A stretch of DNA of 35,237 nt from a virus: IMG/VR virus record IMGVR_UViG_3300042301_004321, positions 1-35,237 of that record. One strand, given 5' to 3'. Positions within the stretch are counted from its first letter, which is position 1; each line of letters opens with the position of its first letter. A program made the translations under genes and the position numbers. Below the pieces are notes generated by a model. The model had not been told where the DNA came from. It was given only the letters and a program-made list of their open reading frames with translations, and did no database searches. Shown here piece by piece: positions 8,684-35,237 of the stretch.

Positions 8684-9966
8684 TGTCTAATACAATCAAC
8701 ATATCAGGGTTAGCATCTAATGCATCAGCCGCTAAAAATAAATTAGAATCTCTTAAAAATATAAATGTAGAGAAATTAGCAAAAGATAAGCTAAAACAAC
8801 TAACAACAAGCCCTATTCAACGTATTTTAAACGATATTGAAGAAGCTAAAAGTAAAGTTGAAACTTTAAAAACAGATACTTTTGGTAAATTTGCAGATTT
8901 AGATAAACGTATTGAGAATAAGTCAATTACTAGGGAAGAGGCTGATAGGATTAAGCAAATTGTACAAGGTAATTTTGATAAGGAACAAGAAGAATTACAA
9001 GATTTTATAGCTGATAAAACAGAGGATTATCAAAAATTAATTAGTAATAGTAAAGAAGCAATTAATGCTAAATTAAAATTAGCAGATGAAAAAATTAAAG
9101 GTATTTTAAGGAAAAGTCATAAAAGAGTTAAAGGCAAAAATGCTAAAATAATAAAAGATTTATTAAGAGGAGCATTAAATGCCGCTAAAAAGAATCCTGT
9201 TCCTATAATCATGGCTTCTTTAACTATAACTTGTCAACTAGTTTCAGTAAGAAATAAAAGAATTGAAGAATTAGTTGATAATGTTAATAGTGTTATTGAT
9301 AATATTCAATCTAAAGAAGACGTTAAAAAAGCAACTTTATTAAGAAATAATGCTATTAGAATTATAAATGAAAATGAAGCTAAAATTAATTCAATAAAGA
9401 GTATTTTAGAAAGAATTTCACTTATATTATCTATATTAGATATCATATTAGTATTAGCTGATGTACTTTTACCATTACCAACACCCCCAGGACCTTTACC
9501 TGATATTGTAACCCCAGCTAAAGAAAAATTTAGAAAAAAATATGAATTAGCTGTTGAAATATTAACTGGGTTATTAGCTGCTATTTCTATTATAAGATTA
9601 TTATTAGACAGAATTATTGAAGAATTAGAAGAACAAAAAGAAAGACTTAAAGAAATTGATAAATTTTTTGACGAGCCTTCAAATCTATCGGCATTTGATA
9701 GAACTGATTTAGATGCAGTTTTACAAACATTATCACCATCAGGAAACTTAGGTACTATAGATTCGGGTTATAAAGGATTTACATTTGCTATAAAAGAAGA
9801 AAACGATTCAAGATTCGTCGTGGCTGGAAATTCTCGTCGTTATGCGGTTGCTTTAAATCGAGATAAGAATGAAGTATTACAATCTCAACGTTCTTTTACA
9901 CTAGACCCTGACATTCTTATTGAAGAACTTAAATTAATCATAGATCAACAAAATCTTAAAGCTTAA
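8683..9966 (+). CDS. Virion protein with coiled coils and membrane-like segments, 427 aa
   Basis: It starts on a TAATG overlap with gp5. Residues 1-160 are Lys/Glu-rich helices with coiled-coil character. NPVPIIMASLTITCQLVSV (~170-188), ISLILSILDIILVLADVLL (~244-262, followed by the Pro-rich PLPTPPGPLPD) and VEILTGLLAAISIIRLLL (~292-309) are hydrophobic enough for membrane insertion. A compact C-terminal domain ends with YKGFTFAIKEE and a strand/helix region to NLKA. No family name is certain. The position between gp5 and gp25 suggests a hub, tail-tip or tape-associated role. The hydrophobic helices hint that it could enter the host membrane during DNA injection; that part is inference. Confidence 0.72.
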   Translation: MSNTINISGLASNASAAKNKLESLKNINVEKLAKDKLKQLTTSPIQRILNDIEEAKSKVETLKTDTFGKFADLDKRIENKSITREEADRIKQIVQGNFDKEQEELQDFIADKTEDYQKLISNSKEAINAKLKLADEKIKGILRKSHKRVKGKNAKIIKDLLRGALNAAKKNPVPIIMASLTITCQLVSVRNKRIEELVDNVNSVIDNIQSKEDVKKATLLRNNAIRIINENEAKINSIKSILERISLILSILDIILVLADVLLPLPTPPGPLPDIVTPAKEKFRKKYELAVEILTGLLAAISIIRLLLDRIIEELEEQKERLKEIDKFFDEPSNLSAFDRTDLDAVLQTLSPSGNLGTIDSGYKGFTFAIKEENDSRFVVAGNSRRYAVALNRDKNEVLQSQRSFTLDPDILIEELKLIIDQQNLKA

Positions 9967-20756: not shown

Positions 20757-23700
20757 ATGGCATCATTCAAAAAACTGAGTACTCCAGACGTATTCGTTGT
20801 TCCGTATACAGCTAATAAAAACTGGGACCTTGATTTCGCTTGTGTTCCTCAGGATGGTGCTTACTTTACTATATTCAAGGGTAAAAATATAACTGGTAGT
20901 ATTGATTTAGTTAATGGTCCTATAACTGAAGGTCAATATGAATCTTTAGTTTATCGCCAAATAAATCACTTATATTACCAATATCATTCTTCCAGCATTC
21001 TTAATTCTCATTCATTATTAGATTCATTATATTATGAGTCTTATATGACAGAATCTAGTACAATTTCTACTAGTTCTTATTTTGATTTTAATGAGAATCC
21101 ATCATTTGTAAATAATTTTCCTACTTCATCTAACGATATTATTAGAGTAATGTCGTTTAATCAAAACATTTACGGTGAACAAATAAAACCTAATAACTTT
21201 ATATTAACAGCAAGTGGTAGTTATCAACTAGCTGATGATGGATTAGGAAATATATATGATATCTCTTTTACAGGATATTATGTACAACCTGGCTATTATG
21301 CTCCTCCGGGATATATTGCTGAATTACAAAATAAAGTTCATGTAGGAAATATATTTTATTCTCAAGGTTTAGTAGTAATAACAAATCAAAACTATAAATG
21401 TTTTTTACCTACTCCCCCTAATGCTATAAATGATTATTTTAGAGTATTAAACGTACAGAGAGTTAAAAAATTAGATATTTTAGCTAATGACTATATTGAT
21501 AGTTGTAATTCTACAGCTCTTGCTACTGGCTCAGTAGTCACATATCCTTATACAGGATATAGTTTTCCTGATGTTACTTTAATTACAGGTTCTCTTTTTG
21601 TAGATGAATGTGAAACTTTAGGAGTAACACCAGGTAATTATAAATTATATTATACTGTAAATGATAATACTTGTTTAAAAAGCAATACCGCTAGTATTGA
21701 TTTAGAACTTTATAAATTACCTTTAGAAATATCCCAATCAGCATACCAATCAATTGTTTGTACTGGGGGAGTTTCTGCTGTGAATTTTTCAATAAATTAT
21801 GGTGTTCCTCCTTATCAATATTCATTAGGTGGAGGAACTTACAACAATTTACCTAACTGTGATTGGTACCAACCAACAGCATCAATTAATGCTCCTATTG
21901 GTAATAATATTTTTTACGTAAAAGATAGTGAAGGAACAATAGTTTCTAAATCCTTTACTGTATCTGCAAATATATTCACTGTTACAACTAATAAAACTGA
22001 TATAACTTGTGGTGGGGCGGGTGATGGAAAAATAGCAGTTACTGGATCTTCTACTTATGGAGCTCCATATTCTGCCTCTATAAATGGTGGATCTAGTTGG
22101 AATGGTTTTACTACTAATACTTTATTTTCAAACTTAACACCAGCTACTTATACAGTAACTGTAAAAGATAATTTATGTAGTACTTCATCTTTAGTTACTA
22201 TTACTCAACCAACCCCAATATCAGTTACTATTAATTCAACAACATCAGATTGTCCTGAACCAGGTCAAGATGTTGGATCTATTAGTATAACTGTTTCTGG
22301 AGGTACATCTCCTTATACTTATTCTTGGGTTACAGGTTCTACTCAAGTAAGAACCGTAGAAGATCCAACAGGTTTACCTGCGGGTTCATATACAGTAACT
22401 GTAACTGATGCTAATAATTGTACTGCTACAGGTAGTGCTACAATTAGTTCTACTAATCTTATTTCTATAGTATTAACTCCAACGGGTGAAACTTGTGGAA
22501 ATGGAGCAGGCTCTATTAGTGCCACAGTAACAGGTGGAAGTGGTAATGGATTTACTTATTCTTGGAATACAAACCCAATTAGAACAACAAAAGATATTAG
22601 TGGGTTAGGAAGCGGTACTTATACTTTAACTGTAACTGATACAGGTACAGGATGTACATCTTCTGGAAGTGCAACAGTTACATCAACACCAGGAATATCT
22701 TCAGTAAGTGCTTCTGTTACTTATAATCAATGTGATAGTAGTTTAGTAATTACAGCTACTGGAGGAACAGCACCTTATACATTTGTAGCAGTAAATGGAG
22801 GAACTACAAGATCAGTAGGTCCTACTACTAGCCCAGGTACTATTGTTTTAAATAGTGGATTAGCTGGTGGTACATGGAATATTACAGTAGCAGATGCTAA
22901 TGGATGTACAGCAACAACAACTAGAGCAGTAAGAGCTAGAGAATATAGATACACAGATCCAGTTTGTCAAGAATTAAATGCTGTTATTTTAATTGATGAA
23001 TCTAAGGGAGTTGGAACTAATCTTAAAGTTAAAGGAAGTGGTCAAGATATAACTACATTATTCTCAACAGCAGCAAATTATATCCAAATGCATAATGGAA
23101 CTTCATATTCTTTTGAAGCACCTTTATATCCACCAGCAGATCCAGGATGGGTTGGAAATTATGCTTCTGCTTCTCATACAATGTCTGTTTATACTACAGG
23201 TTCATTAACATTTACAACTTCTAGTATTGAAACAGGAAGTGCTTATTGGCCATTCTATAGTTTAACAGGAAATTCAAGTAGATATTATTTAATTAAAGCA
23301 GAAGCTAATTTAGTAGTTGCTCCGAGCCCAAGTCCGTCTCCGAGCCCAAGTCCGTCTCCGAGTCCGAGCCCGTCTCCGAGCCCAAGTCCTTCTCCAAGTC
23401 CGACATGTGTAACATCAGTAAATTTTGAAGTTAACACTGCGGGTAACGTTAGTTATTTGGATTGTTGTGAACAAGCCGTAGTTGGATTTTATGGTATTGG
23501 GCCACAAGTTATTAATGGTTGTATTAAAAATGGCACATTGGCTGGTGCTGGTGCTACTATATCAGATATTTCATATAATAGTACTTCTTGTAATTGTAGC
23601 CCGAGCCCGTCTCCGAGTCCATCTCCGAGCCCAAGCCCAAGTCCTTCTCCAAGTCCGAGCCCGTCTCCAAACCCGGCCCCAGTATATTATTATATTTTAA

Positions 23701-24023
23701 ATAAATGTGATAATTCAGGTACAGTAATTGGTAGAAGTTCTAGTAATGCTTTATTAAGTGAAATTAATTTAGTTTATGTACTCACTGGTACTACATGTGC
23801 TACTCTTAGTAGTTTTGATAATGACAATAACGGTACTTTTGATTATGCCTTAGATGGTTTAACTCCATTATCAGATTGTAATGCTTCAGCTTGCCAATCA
23901 GGAGGTTCAGGTAGCCCAGGAGGGGGAGGTAGCCCAGGAGGAATAGGTGGACCACCTCCAGAAAGCCCACCAAGTCCTCCAAGTGGTGGTGGTGGAGGTG
24001 ATGATGAATTGACACCAGGATAA
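20757..24023 (+). CDS. Modular fibre/adhesin with SprB-like repeats and Pro-Ser linkers, 1088 aa
   Basis: Order of parts: an N-terminal domain (~1-320; KLSTPDVFVVPYTANKNWDL) likely attaches to the virion. About five SprB/PKD-like repeats follow (~321-724), each ending with a pattern such as GSYTVTVTDANNCTATGSA and containing GGTSPYTYSW-like turns. Then comes a globular segment, (PS)13P (~856-882), a Cys-rich ~65-aa module (TCVTSVNFEVNTAGNVSYLD...), (SP)12 (~948-971), a further module with a Ca-loop-like DNDNNGTFD (~1021-1029), and a Gly/Pro/Ser-rich tail. SprB repeats are known from flavobacterial gliding adhesins. The modular plan and repeat linkers point to a host-range determinant. Late gene, 20 nt after the previous stop. 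Confidence 0.82.
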   Translation: MASFKKLSTPDVFVVPYTANKNWDLDFACVPQDGAYFTIFKGKNITGSIDLVNGPITEGQYESLVYRQINHLYYQYHSSSILNSHSLLDSLYYESYMTESSTISTSSYFDFNENPSFVNNFPTSSNDIIRVMSFNQNIYGEQIKPNNFILTASGSYQLADDGLGNIYDISFTGYYVQPGYYAPPGYIAELQNKVHVGNIFYSQGLVVITNQNYKCFLPTPPNAINDYFRVLNVQRVKKLDILANDYIDSCNSTALATGSVVTYPYTGYSFPDVTLITGSLFVDECETLGVTPGNYKLYYTVNDNTCLKSNTASIDLELYKLPLEISQSAYQSIVCTGGVSAVNFSINYGVPPYQYSLGGGTYNNLPNCDWYQPTASINAPIGNNIFYVKDSEGTIVSKSFTVSANIFTVTTNKTDITCGGAGDGKIAVTGSSTYGAPYSASINGGSSWNGFTTNTLFSNLTPATYTVTVKDNLCSTSSLVTITQPTPISVTINSTTSDCPEPGQDVGSISITVSGGTSPYTYSWVTGSTQVRTVEDPTGLPAGSYTVTVTDANNCTATGSATISSTNLISIVLTPTGETCGNGAGSISATVTGGSGNGFTYSWNTNPIRTTKDISGLGSGTYTLTVTDTGTGCTSSGSATVTSTPGISSVSASVTYNQCDSSLVITATGGTAPYTFVAVNGGTTRSVGPTTSPGTIVLNSGLAGGTWNITVADANGCTATTTRAVRAREYRYTDPVCQELNAVILIDESKGVGTNLKVKGSGQDITTLFSTAANYIQMHNGTSYSFEAPLYPPADPGWVGNYASASHTMSVYTTGSLTFTTSSIETGSAYWPFYSLTGNSSRYYLIKAEANLVVAPSPSPSPSPSPSPSPSPSPSPSPSPSPTCVTSVNFEVNTAGNVSYLDCCEQAVVGFYGIGPQVINGCIKNGTLAGAGATISDISYNSTSCNCSPSPSPSPSPSPSPSPSPSPSPSPNPAPVYYYILNKCDNSGTVIGRSSSNALLSEINLVYVLTGTTCATLSSFDNDNNGTFDYALDGLTPLSDCNASACQSGGSGSPGGGGSPGGIGGPPPESPPSPPSGGGGGDDELTPG
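23322..23402 (+). repeat. Pro-Ser coding tandem repeat, array 1
   Basis: 27 codons alternate Pro and Ser (CCG/CCA/CCT and AGC/AGT/TCT) with an 18-bp higher-order unit resembling CCGAGCCCAAGTCCGTCT. The segment is conspicuously GC-rich against its surroundings. Confidence 0.93.
23598..23669 (+). repeat. Pro-Ser coding tandem repeat, array 2
   Basis: 24 codons of (Ser-Pro)12, about 195 bp after array 1 and sharing a run of more than 20 identical bases with its end. It ends in Asn-Pro-Ala-Pro. Recombination between the arrays would remove or swap the Cys-rich module between them in frame. Confidence 0.92.
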
Positions 24024-24045: not shown

Positions 24046-24861
24046 ATGATAAGAAGATCAGGAAATAAGATTTATACAAAGGTAACACAATACTTTACAG
24101 ATGACAGTTCAGCTGTGGGGTATAGTCATTCTCTTACTTCCCCAACTGAAAGTTTTTGTGGAACTAATTTCTTTTATGAACAACGCTTAACCAGTAGTTT
24201 AGCTAATGGTAAATGGAGAGATTGTTTATATGGTCCTTTTACTTTCTGTTCTGGTTCTACTTCTAGCAGTGCTTGTGAAAGTGGAAACTGTAATCAATTT
24301 TATTTAGATACAGCAACTATTAATATAGATCCTACAGGTGTTATGTTAGATGAAACTTCTAATGTAACCTTATATACTGGTTCTCGTATGTATTTGTCTT
24401 CAAGCTTAGAATTAGCCCCAGATGCATATTATGCTTCTGGTAGTATTTGGTATCAAGTAGGAACAGGAAATGCTTATGGATATAATGCAGGTACTATAAT
24501 TATTAGTGGAAGTTGCCCTCCACCACCTTCAACTCCTACAGCTACATTTGATTATAGTAGTGGTACTAATACAAGTAGTTCAGGAACAGGACTTACTACA
24601 ATTAATCCAACAATAACAATTACAAACGGCCCTGTAACAATTAGATTAAGAATTACAGTAACAACAGGATTTAGAGGAAATACAACATTAATAATACCAG
24701 GATATGGAAGTTTCTCACCTACACCACAACCAGAAGGTGCTGGTGATAGTACATTCCTTGATATTACTTTAGTTACAGGAATTTACTATTGTACTTGGGA
24801 AATAAATGCAATATCTCAAGGTGAGTTTACACTTGCACAATCAACATTAATTCAAATATAA
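24046..24861 (+). CDS. Cys-rich tail-fibre-type protein, 271 aa
   Basis: The N-terminal half contains several Cys: FCGTNFFYEQR, GKWRDCLYGPFTFCSGS, SACESGNCNQFYLD (~residues 37-87), suggesting disulphides or a metal site in an extracellular protein. The second half, after CPPPPSTPTATFDY (~155-168), is a Thr/Gly-rich beta-sandwich ending TWEINAISQGEFTLAQSTLI. No signal peptide. It is preceded by motif L6 and followed by the 102-aa module protein. Probably a distal fibre or receptor-binding component; no family recognised. Confidence 0.72.
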   Translation: MIRRSGNKIYTKVTQYFTDDSSAVGYSHSLTSPTESFCGTNFFYEQRLTSSLANGKWRDCLYGPFTFCSGSTSSSACESGNCNQFYLDTATINIDPTGVMLDETSNVTLYTGSRMYLSSSLELAPDAYYASGSIWYQVGTGNAYGYNAGTIIISGSCPPPPSTPTATFDYSSGTNTSSSGTGLTTINPTITITNGPVTIRLRITVTTGFRGNTTLIIPGYGSFSPTPQPEGAGDSTFLDITLVTGIYYCTWEINAISQGEFTLAQSTLIQI

Positions 24862-28895: not shown

Positions 28896-28904
28896 AATAT
28901 TTAT
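28896..28904 (+). promoter_or_regulatory. Late-type motif L8
   Basis: AATATTTAT followed at once by a hairpin, 42 nt before ATG 28947. It heads the cargo-like cluster. Confidence 0.58.
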
Positions 28905-28931
28905 AGGTGGCTTGGTTTATCCAGGTCACCT
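28905..28931 (+). other. Hairpin in leader of kinase gene, or weak terminator
   Basis: AGGTGGCTTGG (28905-28915) pairs with CCAGGTCACCT (28921-28931), 11 bp with two wobbles, loop TTTAT. The following ATTTACATTTAG is only loosely T-rich. It may stop upstream transcripts or shield the 5' end of the message started at L8. Confidence 0.62.
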
Positions 28932-28946
28932 ATTTACATTTAGTAT

Positions 28947-29783
28947 ATGATCAAACTAATTGACTTATTAATGGAAGCAGCAATGCCTCAAAATAAAATG
29001 ATAATCATGGCGGGAGGCGCCGGAGCTGGGAAGTCTACTTTAATAAATAAAATTAAAGGTGTAACACCTGGATTTGAAATAATCAACCCAGATAAGTATA
29101 TTGAAGATAAATCAAGTGAAATGTTCAACAATCTTACAGCGGCTTCTGCTCAAGTAGATGATGTTGACGTACCTAATGCACTTTCATCAGGTAAGGCGTT
29201 TATTTGGGATACTACCGCGTCTAACGCAGCTAAATTAATCGGTGGTCTATATAAAAGAAAAGAAGTACCAGGTTTATTAAATACCGCGTCTAATTATGAT
29301 ACATTAATGATTATGGTGTATGCTCACCCCATTGTATCATTTTTAAGGAACTTTAAACGTGAACGTAGAGTGCCTAAAGTTGGTGTTATCCAAACATGGA
29401 ATAGTGTTTATGGAAATATAGATACTTATAAAAGTAAATTAGGAGATAATTTTGTATTATATCAAGCTCCTGATCAAGAGTATCAAAAAGAAATTAATGG
29501 GTTTAATCAAGCCGTTCAACAAGGTAAATTATTTGATTGGTTAGAACAATTAACCCAAACAAACCCAGAACAGTTTATATCAACTTTTCGTAAAACTCAA
29601 GATGAACCTTTATCACCTGATGAGCAGGCTAAAAAGGATAAAGCGTCAGAAAAATCAAGAGAAAACTATAAAAAACAAGTAGAGCAGTTAGAACGCGAAT
29701 TCATTAATATTGATAAAAAAATCAAAGAATCCGTTTTATCTGAATCAGAAATTATATCTAAAGTAAAATCATTTGTGCAGTAA
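28947..29783 (+). CDS. P-loop kinase, zeta-toxin/AAA-type, with capsid-leader-like N-terminus, 278 aa
   Basis: Walker A is GGAGAGKST (residues 23-31; K29), followed by INPDKYIED and FIWDTTAS, a Walker B-like strand; RERRVPKVG provides lid arginines. This order is that of zeta-toxin-like or polynucleotide-kinase-type small-molecule kinases. The C-terminal ~60 residues form a charged coiled coil. The first ten residues, MIKLIDLLME, precede the fold and end L-M-E before Ala, like the T4 prohead-targeting leaders; the gene at 32675 starts almost identically. The stop is joined by TAATG to the next gene. The substrate is unknown. Confidence 0.8.
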   Translation: MIKLIDLLMEAAMPQNKMIIMAGGAGAGKSTLINKIKGVTPGFEIINPDKYIEDKSSEMFNNLTAASAQVDDVDVPNALSSGKAFIWDTTASNAAKLIGGLYKRKEVPGLLNTASNYDTLMIMVYAHPIVSFLRNFKRERRVPKVGVIQTWNSVYGNIDTYKSKLGDNFVLYQAPDQEYQKEINGFNQAVQQGKLFDWLEQLTQTNPEQFISTFRKTQDEPLSPDEQAKKDKASEKSRENYKKQVEQLEREFINIDKKIKESVLSESEIISKVKSFVQ

Positions 29784-31174
29784 TGAATTTAGGACAACAC
29801 ATAGCAAAACAATTATTAGAGGAAAAACAATACGTTATTGGTGTATTCCCAGGTGCATTTAAACCACCACATAAAGGTCATTTTAATGTTGTTAAGCGTT
29901 TATCAGATATGTGTGATGAAGTTCAAGTCTTTATCTCTCCTAAAACTCGTGAAGGAATCACAGCTGATGAAAGTTATAGAGTATGGGAATTATATAAAAC
30001 ATTATTACCAGGAAATGTTAATTTTTTAGTTGTGGATGAAAATCCTGTTAGAGAAACCTATGATATAATAACATCAAACCCAGAAGCTAAAATTATAGCA
30101 GCATTTGGTAAAGATGAATTTACTCGTTTTAATTCTATTCTTTCAAATGAAAAATATAGAAATGCTGAGTTATTTAATGCAGGAACATTTGATAATATAA
30201 GTGCTACTAATTTTAGAATAGCAATTAAATCTAAAAAAGAAGACTTAATTAAAAAATTCTTACCAGATGGCATTGATGTGAAGCAATTCATGGATGCTGC
30301 TGGTTATACAATGGGCGACACGGAAAAAGAAGAGTTAAAAGAAGGCCAAGAAAACTTGTCTTTATTAAAGGAGTTCATTAGATTTACCCTACGTGAATTG
30401 GGTATTGAGGGGGGAGGGGGAAAAATCGTGATAAGTAGGGATACGGAGAAAGCGAGAGAAATGAGGTCAATGGGGTTATATAGTCCACAAGACGACAAGA
30501 TTTGGATTTATACGGGTAACCGTAATATGGCTGATATTTGCCGAACTGTTTCTCATGAATTGGTACACTTATCACAAAAACAAAAAGGCCAAGCTTTAGA
30601 CGGAACTACAGGTTCTGATACTGAAAATGAAGCAAATTCTAAAGCAGGGCAAATAATGAGAAAATTTGCACAAATTAATCCTATGATATTCGAAGCACAA
30701 GACTCACCACAATATAGAATCTATTGCGATATGGATGGTGTTATTGTTGACTTTGAAGGTGCCTATGAAAACTTAACAGGTAAAAATATTAGAGGAAATC
30801 ATGTTAAGGGTGATGCTGATTTTTGGCAACCAATAACTGATGCTGGTGAATCATTTTGGACTGAAATGGAGTGGATGGAAGATGGTCAAGAACTATGGAA
30901 TTACATTAAACCATATTCTCCTAAATTACTTTCAGCTCCTTCAAGACAAGAATCTTCAAGAACAGGAAAACAAAAATGGGTAGAACAAAATCTCCCAGGT
31001 ACAGTATTACTTCTTAAATCAGCAGAGTATAAACAATTTTATGCGTCTCCTAAATCAATATTGATTGATGATAGAGCAGATAATATTCAAAGATGGAAGG
31101 ATGCAGGTGGTGTAGGTGTATTACATACTTCAGCTGCTGATACAATTCAACAATTAAAAGAATTAGGTTTATGA
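29783..31174 (+). CDS. Three-domain fusion: nucleotidyltransferase, HExxH metallopeptidase-like, HAD 5'-nucleotidase-like, 463 aa
   Basis: Residues ~16-160: VFPGAFKPPHKGHFNVVKRL with HxGH (H30-H33) and ISATNFR (139-145), the two signatures of NMNAT/PPAT-type nucleotidyltransferases. Residues ~190-300: a small domain with HELVH (258-262) and downstream ENEA (281-284), a zinc metallopeptidase pattern. Residues ~311-463: CDMDGVIVDF (D316, D318) and ILIDDRADN (D429, D430), a HAD fold close to phage 5'(3')-deoxyribonucleotidases. Junctions contain L-K-E-G (185-188), L-R-E-L and I-F-E-A (302-305), possible protease sites. A G6AG5A5 tract at 30409-30425 codes the second linker. The parts may be separated after translation. 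Confidence 0.82.
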   Translation: MNLGQHIAKQLLEEKQYVIGVFPGAFKPPHKGHFNVVKRLSDMCDEVQVFISPKTREGITADESYRVWELYKTLLPGNVNFLVVDENPVRETYDIITSNPEAKIIAAFGKDEFTRFNSILSNEKYRNAELFNAGTFDNISATNFRIAIKSKKEDLIKKFLPDGIDVKQFMDAAGYTMGDTEKEELKEGQENLSLLKEFIRFTLRELGIEGGGGKIVISRDTEKAREMRSMGLYSPQDDKIWIYTGNRNMADICRTVSHELVHLSQKQKGQALDGTTGSDTENEANSKAGQIMRKFAQINPMIFEAQDSPQYRIYCDMDGVIVDFEGAYENLTGKNIRGNHVKGDADFWQPITDAGESFWTEMEWMEDGQELWNYIKPYSPKLLSAPSRQESSRTGKQKWVEQNLPGTVLLLKSAEYKQFYASPKSILIDDRADNIQRWKDAGGVGVLHTSAADTIQQLKELGL

Positions 31175-31752
31175 TGAATGAAAGTGTTTTGAAAAAAGAG
31201 TTTCGAGAAAAAGATGTACAGAGAGTAAGAAATATAGTAAATAAAAAATACGGAGATAAGATCTCAACTCAAGTAGGTTATACTAAAGAAAATATTGATC
31301 GTAAAGAAGGCGATATTTGGGAAGAAAATGGGAAAAATTGGACCATTAAAAATGGTATCAAGATGACCATATCCAAATTAGATTTAGTTAAGAAAGCCCT
31401 TCAAATTCCTCTTACATGTCCTAAGTGCGGTAAAGCAATGAAGAAAAAAGTATTGGATACTAAAATGTATGCAATACATAAAGAATGCTTTGATTGTGTT
31501 ATTACAAGAGAAACTAAATTACGTTTAGATGGTCAATACGAAGCATATGTTCAAGACATGGTTCAACGTAACGCTAAAGGATTTATTGGTGATCTTGAAC
31601 AAATATTACAAGATTTAATTAATGATGTACACCCAGAACAAATTGTTACTGAGAATGGTGAAATGGAACAATGGTCTGGTGGGAATAATAGCGAATTAGT
31701 TAAAGAGTTCCAAGAGTATATTGAAAAAGTAAAATCAATAACCCAATCGTAA
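31171..31752 (+). CDS. Zinc-ribbon protein, 193 aa
   Basis: CPKC (C83, C86) and CFDC (C106, C109), 19 residues apart, form one four-Cys zinc site in the middle. The N-terminal region is basic and helical (VLKKEFREKDVQRVRNIVNK), then WEENGKNWTIKNGIKMTIS reads as strands. The C-terminal ~60 residues are helical and acidic. I recall similar proteins in T4-like phages near this cluster but no function. It starts by an ATGA overlap with the fusion gene. A nucleic-acid-binding role is plausible from the zinc site. Confidence 0.74.
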   Translation: MMNESVLKKEFREKDVQRVRNIVNKKYGDKISTQVGYTKENIDRKEGDIWEENGKNWTIKNGIKMTISKLDLVKKALQIPLTCPKCGKAMKKKVLDTKMYAIHKECFDCVITRETKLRLDGQYEAYVQDMVQRNAKGFIGDLEQILQDLINDVHPEQIVTENGEMEQWSGGNNSELVKEFQEYIEKVKSITQS

Positions 31753-31759
31753 TATTTAT
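31751..31759 (+). promoter_or_regulatory. Late-type motif L9
   Basis: AATATTTAT overlapping the previous stop codon, 32 nt before ATG 31792. Confidence 0.5.
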
Positions 31760-31791
31760 TGCTATCAATAACTCAAATATAAGTACACATA

Positions 31792-32070
31792 ATGGAGAAT
31801 ATCTATTCAGTATTAATAACAGCAATTACAGTTTTAGGAGGTACTACAGCATTTCGCTATTATGAAAAACGTGCTATAAAGAAAGAACGTGATGATGATT
31901 TTATCAAACATGATTGTAAAGATAGAATATCTAAACTAGAAGCATTGTTAGAAAAATCATCTCAAGAAAAAGATGAAATGCGTAAACAAATCTTAGATTT
32001 AGTAGCTGAAGTAGCAGCACTACGTACCGAAATTAAGTACCTAACTGATAAACGTATTGGAAGTATATGA
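31792..32070 (+). CDS. Membrane-anchored coiled-coil protein, 92 aa
   Basis: Residues ~4-22 (IYSVLITAITVLGGTTAFRY) form one N-terminal membrane helix with a short outside end. The rest is a charged coiled coil (KLEALLEKSSQEKDEMRKQI, then VAALRTEIKYL). The topology would fit an i-spanin or a holin-like anchor, and such short proteins sit near lysis or packaging genes in related phages. No lysin is adjacent, so the lysis idea is weak. The stop overlaps the next start by four bases. Confidence 0.7.
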   Translation: MENIYSVLITAITVLGGTTAFRYYEKRAIKKERDDDFIKHDCKDRISKLEALLEKSSQEKDEMRKQILDLVAEVAALRTEIKYLTDKRIGSI

Positions 32071-32675
32071 TAAATTTACAAGAAGAACAAGATTGTGGCT
32101 GCAATGGCCCTCAAATAATATCTGAAGGTAAAGAATCAATATTGTTATCTGAAGGTATGAAATACCATATAACTGAAGGTAGACAGTTAATTCATAATAT
32201 CTACCGTCCCCTATCAAATAATTATTTTGCTTTATTTCGTGAAGCACGTGAATTATATAATAAAGGTATATTATCTGTAACTGAAGATGATGCTGAATTG
32301 TTAGAATCTAATATTGGTGAAATTGATAATTATAATGGATTCAATGTTCCTTTAGATTACCCAATCAGTTTAGAAGAAATTATAAACGAAGTAGATAAAA
32401 AGAAAACACCTCCTATTGGTAAACCAAAACGTGGTGGTTCTAAAAAGTTTTATGTATATGTTCGTAAACCGGGTGGGGGTATTAAAAAAGTATCATTTGG
32501 TGATACTACAGGATTAAGAGCTAAATTAAATAATCCAAAAGCCCGTAAAGCATTTGCAGCTCGCCATAAATGCGCTCAGAAAAAAGATAGAACAAAAGCA
32601 TCATATTGGTCATGTCGTTTACCAAGATATGCTAAATTATTAGGCTTTAAAACATCATTTGGTGGATTTTGGTAA
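32067..32675 (+). CDS. Basic protein with processed-leader-like N-terminus, 202 aa
   Basis: Two parts. Residues 1-110 are acidic and carry repeated L/I-x-E sites: IISEG (17-21), LLSEG (26-30), HITEG (34-38) and IINEV (105-109). Residues 111-202 are strongly basic: KRGGSKKFYVYVRKPGGGIK, then KKVSFGDTTGLRAKLNNPKA and ARHKCAQKKDRTKASYWSCR, a family I recall as small basic proteins of T4-like phages. This layout (acidic propeptide with several prohead-protease-type sites, then a basic, probably DNA-binding body) is like T4 internal proteins. ATGA overlap before and TAATG after. Confidence 0.76.
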   Translation: MINLQEEQDCGCNGPQIISEGKESILLSEGMKYHITEGRQLIHNIYRPLSNNYFALFREARELYNKGILSVTEDDAELLESNIGEIDNYNGFNVPLDYPISLEEIINEVDKKKTPPIGKPKRGGSKKFYVYVRKPGGGIKKVSFGDTTGLRAKLNNPKARKAFAARHKCAQKKDRTKASYWSCRLPRYAKLLGFKTSFGGFW

Positions 32676-33088
32676 TGATTAAATTATTCGACATATTAAA
32701 AGAAATTACAGATTCTGTTCAATATAGCAATCCTAATTTTGAAAAAGAATGGATGGAAGCAAAACGCTATCCTGAATTTAAAAAATTAGGTAAAGCTAAA
32801 TGGGTAGAATTAGCTAAGACTGGTAAACCTGTTAATTTAACTTCTGCAAAGGATATAAATAATACTAACGCAGATGAACCAAGTACTTTTAAAACTTTAA
32901 ACCCAGAAAAACAAAAAAGAGCATTAGCTCAAATTGAAGCAGGCAATGTAGAAATGCCAATTGTTGCTTTATATTCAGATGGATACAAAGAATTGATTGG
33001 TGGTAATACTAGACTTACAGCATTGATGCTACAAAAGGGTAAAGCTACTATATGGCAGTTTAAAGTACCAGATGAAATATTGTTATGA
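32675..33088 (+). CDS. ParB-like domain protein with capsid-leader-like N-terminus, 137 aa
   Basis: LNPEKQKRALAQIEAGNVEM, PIVALYSDGYKELIGGNTRL and TALMLQKGKATIWQF (residues ~77-131) match the ParB/sulfiredoxin-like fold, whose G-G-N-x-R motif binds nucleotide or DNA. The leader MIKLFDILKE ends L-K-E at residue 10 exactly where the kinase at 28947 has L-M-E. The TTG two codons upstream is disregarded because ATG 32675 sits in a TAATG overlap. The N-terminal ~70 residues contain a helix with PEFKKLGKAKWVELAKTGKP. Enzymatic function (nuclease, ATPase or kinase) is unknown. Confidence 0.77.
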   Translation: MIKLFDILKEITDSVQYSNPNFEKEWMEAKRYPEFKKLGKAKWVELAKTGKPVNLTSAKDINNTNADEPSTFKTLNPEKQKRALAQIEAGNVEMPIVALYSDGYKELIGGNTRLTALMLQKGKATIWQFKVPDEILL

Positions 33089-33348
33089 GTCATCCTTATA
33101 CTGATTTAGAGATAACAAAAGAATATGTTATTAGAGAGTTCGATGAAAATATAGATCCCATCGAACTTCTTTGGCATCGTGATAATGAAGACCGTCTTAT
33201 TGAACCCACACAACCCACAGATTGGTTTATACAACTTGAAGACGAATTACCAACACTTATAAATAAATCGATATTTATACCAAAACATACCTGGCATCGC
33301 ACTATTAAAGGCAATGGCTCGTTGGTAATCAAAATTCAAAAATTGTGA
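33085..33348 (+). CDS. Cupin-like small protein, 87 aa
   Basis: ELLWHRDNEDRLIEP (residues 28-42), DWFIQLEDELP and IFIPKHTWHRTIKGNGSLVI (63-82) give the paired His/Glu pattern of a small jelly-roll cupin; H31 and H68/H71 could bind a metal. From memory, short proteins with H-R-x-(I/V)-K-G near the end occur in T4-like marine phages with no assigned function. It overlaps both neighbours by four bases (ATGA, GTGA), so it belongs firmly to this unit. It lacks the MIKL leader. Confidence 0.72.
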   Translation: MSHPYTDLEITKEYVIREFDENIDPIELLWHRDNEDRLIEPTQPTDWFIQLEDELPTLINKSIFIPKHTWHRTIKGNGSLVIKIQKL

Positions 33349-33764
33349 TTAAATTACAAGAAATACTAGACCAGATCATTGTAGAAAAGCTTTGCAAAAA
33401 AGGTAAAACTTATTATGATCGTCGCAGAGCTGCTGGTGAAAAACCATCAGCTTATCTTTCTGGTCGTGCTGTTAAGGTATGTAAAGGATTAATGGAAGAA
33501 GATGATTTAGATTTACATGAATCTCTTCGTGATTGGTTTAAAAAAGAAGATTGGGTTCGTATTGATACACAAGGTAACATAACTGGTCCTTGTGGTACAA
33601 TGAAAAAAGATAAAGCAACAACTCGTTGTTTACCTCGTGCTAAGGCAAATCGTTTAACTAAAGCTGAACGCGCTGCTACATCACGTAAAAAAGTAGCTGG
33701 GTCTAAAAAAGGTAAGCAATTTGTATCTAATACAGATAAAGCAAAAGTAAAGTTTAATAAATAA
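33345..33764 (+). CDS. Two-part basic protein, probable polyprotein, 139 aa
   Basis: GTG at 33345 starts within a GTGA overlap. After the leader MIKLQEILDQIIVE (I-V-E at 12-14) comes a first basic module, KKGKTYYDRRRAAGEKPSAY and VKVCKG (18-48). The linker LMEEDDLDLHES has two L-x-E sites (51, 59). The second basic module is LRDWFKKEDWVRIDTQGNIT, CGTMKKDKATTRCLPRAKAN and RAATSRKKVAGSKKGK (61-125), a family I recall in several phages (possibly DUF5872; name uncertain). Both modules look like small DNA-binding or condensing domains. Separation at the linker would give two peptides, as in processed T4 internal proteins. Confidence 0.78.
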   Translation: MIKLQEILDQIIVEKLCKKGKTYYDRRRAAGEKPSAYLSGRAVKVCKGLMEEDDLDLHESLRDWFKKEDWVRIDTQGNITGPCGTMKKDKATTRCLPRAKANRLTKAERAATSRKKVAGSKKGKQFVSNTDKAKVKFNK

Positions 33765-35237
33765 TGAGAGCAATTGACAAATTCATAATTCACGTAACAC
33801 ACAATTTATTTTCCCTTAATGAATACTCAGAAGGTGAGATTAATAAATTGATGACTAAATTTAAAGAAGAAGCTGATGATTTAAATATTGAAATTGCTGA
33901 TGATAAATTAAAAGCATATATTGAACGTTTTGATTCTTTAAAAAATTCACCTAAAGTTACTGAAAAAGATTTACGTAAATATAGTTTATCTAAATTAATA
34001 AAATTAGTAACTTCAACTAAAGGTGTTGAAGAACCTGAAGAAGAAGTTGACATTACTCCAGATGTGGTTTATGACCAGAATGGTTTAATTATATATAATG
34101 GTTCTAAAGAAGAAAACTGTTTAAATTTCGGTAGAGGTGAATCTTGGTGTATTACCAGAGGTTCATTTGGTAACTATCGTTATGATGATAATAGAAAAAA
34201 CCCAACATTTTATTTAGTAAAAGATACAAATTTACCTAATAGCGATCGTAAGAGTTTCTTTGTTGTGGTTGTTGGTAAAGATGACACTTATAAAGCATCA
34301 GACAGATCAAATAATGATGTTGGTGGTAGAGCTACAGAATGGGATAGATGGGAACCATGGAGCTTTATTGAACAAAATTTCCCTTCAGTTACTGGTTTAA
34401 GAAGTGTATTCAAATATATTCCTTTATCTAACAAAGAAAAAATAAATCAATTATATAAAAATAATCCCATTGGTGTTAGAGAGTGGGCTAAACTTCCTTT
34501 TAAAGCTAAAGAACAATATTTAGTTGTTAGAAAAGGTAGAGAATTATTCCAAGATATTAGTAATGATACTTTTGTAGAAAAATACTTACCAAAATATCCA
34601 CAAATTGCTAATACTATTGCTACTAATTTTGGTATTTTAAATAGTATAACTTTAGTTAAAAATTTAGATAAATTCTCAAATGGAGATACAAGATCAATCA
34701 TAGCAAATATGAGAGATAAAATAGAGTTGAAATATCTAACTCTAGATTCTATTTCATTTGAAATTAAGAAATTTTTAGTTAAATTTGATAAATGGGATGT
34801 TCCTAAAAATGAAAGGATATATGTTACCAAAGATAATGAAAGTATTATTAAATTAACTTTTGGTGAAGACATTAAAGTAGGATTATATACTGAAGATGAT
34901 GATTATCCTAATATTAAATTAAATAAACGTACATCACGTTACTTATTAGACTACCCAGATTTAGATAAGATTCCTTTTAAAAATTTAATAACATTAGTTT
35001 CTAATGAAGTAATTGATAAAAGTGTATTAGATAACGTAATCGAAAAAGCAAAAACAGACAGCAACTCAGCTATTATTGCTAAAGATATTAATAACAAAAC
35101 AATATTAATTGATTCTAATTCATTTGTATCTTATAAAATAGACGGTGATAAAGTTTCTAAAGTACCATTCGATGATGAAGAGGTACAAGAAGTATTTACA
35201 CAACAAAAAGATAATGAAGGATTCCAAAAGAATGCAT
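33764..35237 (+). CDS. Large hypothetical protein, runs off window (491 codons seen)
   Basis: The TAATG start at 33764 gives MRAIDKFIIHVTHNLFSLNE (L-N-E at 18-20), again a leader-like end. An acidic helical region follows to ~110, then a conserved-looking part NGLIIYNGSKEENCLNFGRG, ESWCITRGSFGNYRY, NPTFYLVKDT (~125-180) and WDRWEPWSFIEQNFP (~207). The remainder is helical/strand repeats rich in Leu and Lys. I associate WCI(T/S)R...TFY(L/F)V(K/F)D with large phage virion proteins, but cannot name the family. The frame is open to the last base, so the true C-terminus is unknown. Likely a packaged or virion protein by context. Confidence 0.72.
   Translation, partial: MRAIDKFIIHVTHNLFSLNEYSEGEINKLMTKFKEEADDLNIEIADDKLKAYIERFDSLKNSPKVTEKDLRKYSLSKLIKLVTSTKGVEEPEEEVDITPDVVYDQNGLIIYNGSKEENCLNFGRGESWCITRGSFGNYRYDDNRKNPTFYLVKDTNLPNSDRKSFFVVVVGKDDTYKASDRSNNDVGGRATEWDRWEPWSFIEQNFPSVTGLRSVFKYIPLSNKEKINQLYKNNPIGVREWAKLPFKAKEQYLVVRKGRELFQDISNDTFVEKYLPKYPQIANTIATNFGILNSITLVKNLDKFSNGDTRSIIANMRDKIELKYLTLDSISFEIKKFLVKFDKWDVPKNERIYVTKDNESIIKLTFGEDIKVGLYTEDDDYPNIKLNKRTSRYLLDYPDLDKIPFKNLITLVSNEVIDKSVLDNVIEKAKTDSNSAIIAKDINNKTILIDSNSFVSYKIDGDKVSKVPFDDEEVQEVFTQQKDNEGFQKNA

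Follow-up and report, generated by a model that had tools for sequence, protein, structure and literature searches.

The window analysed here, a fragment of 35,237 bases from an uncultured marine T4-like phage (IMG/VR), holds between positions 28947 and 35237 a run of nine open reading frames (ORFs), all on the plus strand, in which proteins with unrelated bodies begin with similar short N-terminal leaders. A first-pass annotation described these ORFs and their N termini correctly, and proposed that the leaders direct enzymes and basic proteins into the phage head for injection into the host.

The first gene (28947–29783) encodes a P-loop kinase of polynucleotide-kinase/zeta-like fold, a candidate packaged enzyme. 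This assignment draws on profile matches (AAA_33/Zeta_toxin, below cut-off, and phrog_2071) and on Foldseek, in which the model of a homologue from contig L014 has its best single-domain match in the C. thermocellum polynucleotide kinase 4gp6 (TMt 0.64), with thymidylate kinases and zeta-type toxins scoring too. The kinase starts with the leader MIKLIDLLME (28947–28976) and carries a VLSE|S site close to its C terminus (the bar marks the candidate cut). A similar leader, MIKLFDILKE, opens the protein at 32675–33088, which starts at an ATG within TAATG, with a TTG two codons upstream, and recurs inside a 628-aa fusion of contig L048 as one of its modules; the label 'ParB-like' given to it earlier finds no Pfam or PHROG match. 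In the capsid-targeting sequence (CTS) of T4, residues 4 and 7 act in targeting and residues 8 and 10 in processing, with cleavage after L/I-x-E (PMC9026906). MIKLIDLLMEA and MIKLFDILKEI fit all four positions (hydrophobic at 4 and 7, L/I at 8, E at 10), and the first-pass claim that these two proteins share a leader aligned at position 10 stands, far beyond chance genome-wide.

The basic protein at 33345–33764 (weak DUF5872 match) has a GTG start and the N terminus MIKLQEILDQIIVEK; its leader, MIKLQEILDQIIVE|K, matches the motif with spacing and site shifted, and a further site, LDLHE|S, lies ahead of an SLRDWF module. Counted within the first 25 residues, the T4-derived motif Φ..Φ[LI].E (Φ, hydrophobic) is present in three of the nine ORFs (28947, 32675 and 33345), against a rate of about 0.02–0.03 in internal windows, which by a binomial estimate has a chance of about 0.002. 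The window copies of 29783, 32067 and 33764 lack the 4/7/8/10 pattern. The protein at 32067–32675, which has a basic C-terminal domain (phrog_7595) and the sites IISE|G, LLSE|G and HITE|G, had been put forward for its start, MINLQEE, and fails the motif; the orthologue in record G001/L005 begins MIKLSDLIEEQ, and on this comparison the leader has probably been shortened in the window's phage. The large protein at 33764–35237, whose gene runs past the end of the window (the G003 relative has 874 aa), begins MRAIDKFIIH..FSLNE: I4, F7 and I8 are possible targeting residues, but position 10 is H and offers no site, leaving only SLNE at residue 20.

One cargo-type protein had been overlooked. The ORF at 29783–31174 is a fusion in which the leader MNLGQHIAKQLLEE precedes an NMNAT/cytidylyltransferase-like domain with Foldseek matches to NadM/NadD/CoaD, a metallopeptidase-like domain (HELVH) and a HAD 5′-nucleotidase; the protein matches phrog_2643 and phrog_395 and has two candidate internal cut sites, ELKE|G (E187) and MIFE|A (E304).

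Longer relatives were found with the kinase as query: G003 (160,926 bases; kinase 99% identical to that of the window), G001 (171,171 bases; 98%), G002 (139,243 bases; 82%) and the more distant G004–G006. A Gp23 capsid protein of T4 type and a prohead protease of the Peptidase S77 family are encoded by all six. Among isolates, Flavobacterium phage vB_FspM_immuto (Immutovirus; hereafter immuto) comes nearest, with 44% identity in the baseplate wedge protein and the same gene order of primase, exonuclease, small-gene cluster, terminase, portal, protease and capsid; a tblastn search of the window kinase against isolates gave no match. Of 23 kinase homologues, with bodies 28–99% identical, 22 retain the leader. 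The motif stands at the called start in 21 of them, and L048 has it, as MISLMQLLKE, at an internal start. The homologue scored as lacking the leader is the disrupted or fused ORF of L046 (7684–9246), where the kinase body is joined to a lipoprotein-like start, a probable frameshift or assembly error. E10 is kept in the aligned kinases, and the residues from leader to P-loop vary. On the relatives' contigs this leader type occurs on many unrelated families (157 distinct proteins in 57 body clusters, some of them chance matches).

In immuto (L062–L064), at least three further leader classes are common to unrelated proteins (MENFDLKKFLVENKLT, MKKQILSEQFRRMQKLAGIITE and MKKSQLRxIIKE; instances at 1803, 25061, 102294, 102880, 103806, 111675, 113188, 117631 and 118632), and a leader-like start, MIKLIDLLTE, lies away from the head block at 24569.

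Across whole genomes we counted hydrophobic-x-x-hydrophobic-[LI]-x-E within the first 24 residues, with shuffled N termini and internal windows as controls. Observed and shuffled counts were 12 and 4.1 in G003, 14 and 4.9 in G001, 14 and 5.1 in G002, 9 and 2.1 in G004, 11 and 1.3 in both G005 and G006, 20 and 5.2 in immuto, and 16 and 6.9 in T4; enrichment in the near-complete relatives is 2–9-fold. We also paired proteins with non-homologous bodies that share at least six of ten N-terminal residues, signal peptides included in the counts, and compared the number of pairs with shuffling, which gives fewer than one per genome. There are 15 such pairs in immuto (0.6–0.8 expected), 9 in G002 (0.5–0.9 expected) and 9 in G003, above its controls. 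Once signal peptides and tail proteins are set aside, these leaders make up the top pairs; in G002, nine of ten residues agree between the kinase and its neighbour. The top pair in T4 is IPII/IPIII, both known CTS proteins, which validates the test. A short N-terminal leader common to proteins with unrelated bodies is present in G002, G003 and immuto.

These controls bear on the reading that the similarity is one of composition, phage N termini being rich in M, K, I, L and E and L-x-E being common. L/I-x-E by itself is indeed frequent, as the first-pass annotation cautioned, and two of its five examples are weak. Shuffling, column permutation and internal windows nevertheless yield fewer matches, and E10 is conserved between kinases with only 28–40% body identity. 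Chance or composition is rejected by these controls as the explanation, and we regard it as very improbable.

Where records are long enough, the motif concentrates near the head genes. Within 32 genes of the capsid gene it is found in 10 of 65 genes in G003, against 2 of 126 elsewhere (p 4e-4); the figures are 12/65 against 2/153 in G001 (p 1e-5) and 14/65 against 6/151 in immuto (p 1e-4), and clustering in G002 has p 0.01. G003 and G001 are near-identical in the region and are therefore not independent here.

The prohead protease gene lies outside the window and was found in all six long relatives, including the near-identical G003 and G001. Aligned with T4 gp21, the protein keeps GELDHP, GISSRG and the aspartate region, and the catalytic His/Ser/Asp are conserved. 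Its N terminus holds L-x-E sites such as SLLKES, and its C terminus has SLNEG, TLQEG or YMSLSEG where T4 has EITES. In the major capsid protein, IVAE|A or LVVE|S aligns with the T4 cleavage site FLTE|A, with V rather than L/I at P3. Together these sites point to a predicted clade consensus of [LIV]-x-E, with which the leaders are compatible. The computable checks proposed with the first-pass annotation (protease and capsid site, motif search over full relatives, leader conservation among homologues of the same fold) have thus come out in favour of its interpretation.

Candidate sites also recur where domains are joined. In most relatives the HAD nucleotidase stands alone and bears a leader of its own. 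Elsewhere it is joined to the kinase (G002, L007, L009 and L012), to the NMNAT-like/metallopeptidase-like protein (the window) or to a larger fusion (L048). An [LIVM]-x-E lies at most 16 residues ahead of this domain in 20 of 20 distinct contexts. The sequence ahead of the SLRDWF module (DUF5872-type) differs greatly among phages; E stands directly ahead of the module in 14 of 14 contexts, as part of [LIVM]-x-E in 11 of them (background 0.017 per position). Because the contexts were picked after inspection and many are related, these counts describe rather than test. In AlphaFold models, confidence is low at residues 1–14 (predicted local distance difference test, pLDDT, <50; containing E10) and 281–287 (containing E285) of the L014 kinase–HAD fusion, and at 177–190 (containing E187) and 306–309 (directly after E304) of the window 29783 fusion, so that predicted linkers coincide with or adjoin the candidate sites.

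The phages may carry modular packaged polyproteins whose linkers hold a prohead-protease site, such that one leader would import several enzymes and the protease would separate them before injection; we put this forward tentatively, at a little under an even chance. The modules would be the kinase, the NMNAT-like, metallopeptidase-like and HAD nucleotidase domains, and the 32675-type, DUF5872-type and phrog_7595 proteins, in combinations that differ by phage.

The position of the genes and of these sites also bears on whether the leader is instead a helix with no connection to the head, one that docks or binds membranes and, for example, joins late enzymes to one another or to a membrane. The leader is amphipathic, a stand-alone leaderless NMNAT adjoins leader-bearing partners, and some leader-like starts, such as immuto 24569, lie far from the head block, all as a docking helix would allow. 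Such a role is set against the clustering at capsid and protease genes, the glutamate at the cleavage position, the [LIV]xE sites of the protease and capsid protein, and the retention of sites at fusion junctions, and we judge it improbable.

A link to measured virions comes from cyanophages. A related nucleotidyltransferase is encoded by T4-like cyanophages (in a single BLASTP comparison, 22% identity over the HxGH region and E 3e-4). Mass spectrometry has detected this NMNAT-like enzyme in the virions of S-SM1 (PMC3037559), S-CREM2 (PMC10665884), S-SCSM1 (PMC9602691) and S-SZBM1 (PMC9146016). The leaders of these enzymes (MKKFSAFLNE|A, MKNFSSFLTE|A, MKSFLQFLKE|A and MRFRQFIIE|A, respectively) are all close to the T4 pattern MKTYQEFIAE|A. 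In S-CREM2 an aromatic leader occurs near the start of five ORFs (a SAM hydrolase, a small protein, an APH-like kinase, gp136 and the cytidylyltransferase), all five of which are in the virion list (52 of 219 genes; p 6.5e-4, an exploratory value because the aromatic expression was picked after seeing that list). Extending to the first 30 residues adds the Cas9-like gp12, in the virion list, and the short ORF gp71, absent from it, and the general hydrophobic motif is only weakly associated with virion presence (p 0.03–0.08), good separation coming from the aromatic form. Profile searches of the other window proteins against S-CREM2 virion proteins gave no link beyond a weak peptidase match to the gp18 region, which is absent from the virion list. 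We found no mention of the leader in the S-CREM2 paper (PMC10665884), and our literature search on capsid targeting in cyanophages returned no paper beyond a T4 review.

Two observations concern individual cyanophage loci. The gp12 motif of S-CREM2, FASFMAEA, adjoins the leader-bearing gp13 and the APH-like kinase gp14, making gp12–gp15 (L112, 7704–13331) a candidate second cargo cluster. In S-SCSM1, gp30 (L121, 44215–44535), a 106-aa hypothetical protein with the T4-type leader MKTFKQFMSES, lies in the structural block between virion genes 29 and 31 and is itself absent from the virion list, a candidate for a degraded core protein or for missed cargo.

Degradation in place is also an alternative for the leader proteins at large: many of them could be targeted to the prohead as core or assembly factors that are destroyed there, like T4 gp22, gp67 and gp68, and never injected. 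Scaffold-type proteins of the same block do start alike (immuto gp071 and gp067; G003 genes 142 and 145), and some of the leader proteins, that of 32067 for one, contain more than one [LIV]xE site. Several leader proteins, however, are folded enzymes with conserved catalytic motifs whose sites fall in or beside linkers and not inside domains, and enzymes of the same superfamily occur in mature cyanophage virions. We hold this alternative to be unlikely, if the least so of those considered.

We favour the explanation that the shared N termini are T4-type capsid-targeting leaders of a packaged-enzyme system, and hold it with good, though not full, confidence. Several points weigh against it. Three of the nine interval genes (31171, 31792 and 33085) have no leader, and neither have stand-alone NMNAT homologues in L007, L009, L014, L017 and L020. 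The clade leader does not have the aromatic residues of the T4 and cyanophage leaders; it shows no sequence homology to MKTYQEFIAE, with aromatics absent at 4 and 7 and the pattern alone in common, and is therefore classed as working like the T4 CTS rather than as a homologous leader. The first-pass annotation had also set weight on G or A after the site. Across the 57 body clusters, E is followed by L, N, A, I, E, V, G, S or another residue, with no clear preference, and a P1′ preference for G/A is rejected. The general observation of shared leaders holds, with more behind it than the first-pass annotation could see; 32067 and 33764 are its weak examples, and the G/A argument falls away. In the pair test G001 gives three pairs, inside the range of its shuffles. 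Clustering was tested in G001, G002, G003, immuto and T4, G004–G006 being too short, and T4 shows none at its capsid gene gp23 (4/65 against 12/186); position is therefore not a property of all CTS cargo, and we do not offer clustering as one. The aromatic expression applied to S-SCSM1 gives two ORFs, one of which (NMNAT) is flagged as a virion protein; with numbers this small it has no statistical support by itself and is rejected as a replicate of the S-CREM2 test. The S-SCSM1 authors note that detected enzymes could be carry-over after purification (PMC9602691), and those of S-CREM2 voice a similar doubt (PMC10665884). Finally, the virion measurements come from cyanophages, which lie outside this clade.

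With packaged enzymes as the preferred reading, the following sequence of events can be proposed. Late in infection the leader, a short amphipathic helix, would dock each protein into the prohead scaffold core. The gp21-type (Peptidase S77) protease would then cut after [L/I/V]-x-E, removing the leader, and would also cut the linkers joining the modules of fused proteins. The freed kinase, NMNAT-like enzyme, metallopeptidase-like domain, HAD nucleotidase and small basic proteins would be retained in the head alongside the DNA and pass into the host when it is infected. For this clade we infer packaging, cleavage and injection. Because a T4-like tag is shared and related tagged enzymes are found in cyanophage particles, the family to which this phage belongs probably packs a sizeable set of enzymes and injects them. 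Its content (an NMNAT-like enzyme, a kinase near polynucleotide/zeta-type kinases and a nucleotidase) suggests work in the first minutes, most likely in very early nicotinamide adenine dinucleotide (NAD)/nucleotide and nucleic-acid-end metabolism or in counter-defence; NAD restoration, end repair and counter-defence are guesses at function. The small basic proteins could bind DNA.

The remaining features of the interval are a zinc-ribbon-type protein (CPKC...C..C; 31171–31752), which is a conserved neighbour, a small membrane/coiled-coil protein (31792–32070; holin-like PHROG match, phrog_2658) and a small conserved protein (33085–33348). A recurrent A/T motif, AATATTTATA, is a promoter candidate of the cargo operon; upstream of the kinase, on the plus strand, it reads ATATTTATA (28896–28905), with a variant at 31751 and further window copies at 9965, 24032 and 27431. 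Among 76 intergenic upstream regions in G003, 28 contain ATATTTAT (1.0 expected), and among 97 in G001, 36 contain ATATTTAT(A). Three window copies end about 4–5 bases ahead of a start codon, a position that would fit a promoter whose mRNA has no leader or a very short one, or else a signal for translation in a group of hosts without Shine–Dalgarno use. Elsewhere in the window, 20757–24023 encodes a large tail-region protein with long serine–proline repeats (SPSPSP).

Only a few proteins are packed into the T4 head, and the targeting code of T4 is used mainly for T-even internal proteins. If our reading is true, the proteins that a wide group of uncultured marine T4-like phages inject can be predicted from a readable N-terminal code, and a pool of injected enzymes, some probably serving counter-defence, can be listed from genomes alone. 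It would also explain the recurring NMNAT-like enzymes and kinases of cyanophage virions, which their authors could not separate from carry-over.

Compared with the CTS of T4 (IPI–IPIII, Alt; PMC9026906, PMC12373910), the system in these phages has the same design: a leader of about ten residues on unrelated proteins, hydrophobic at 4 and 7, with L/I at 8 and E at 10, and in the relatives a gp21-type protease with L/I-x-E specificity. It differs in the leader itself (MIKLxxILxE instead of MKTYQEFIAE), in having many more leader proteins, several of them enzymes or multi-domain fusions, in the position of their genes beside the head block, and in that its packaging is a prediction. The cyanophages S-SM1, S-SCSM1, S-SZBM1 and S-CREM2 share the nucleotidyltransferase superfamily, T4-like head genes and leaders ending in [LFI]xE, and S-CREM2 also has a packaged kinase; their leaders, however, are of the aromatic T4 form (MKxFxxFLxE-A), and their virion presence has been measured. 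Immuto has leader proteins at the same place in the same gene order, whereas its leaders are mostly of other classes (MKKSQLRxIIKE, MENFDLKKFLVEN and MKKQILSEQF) and its domain fusions are different. The inner-body and ejection proteins of phiKZ and SPN3US likewise belong to the head, where a gp21-related protease trims them after x-x-E, but in SPN3US most propeptides are far longer, four exceeding 100 residues (PMC5694885), with no shared ten-residue leader.

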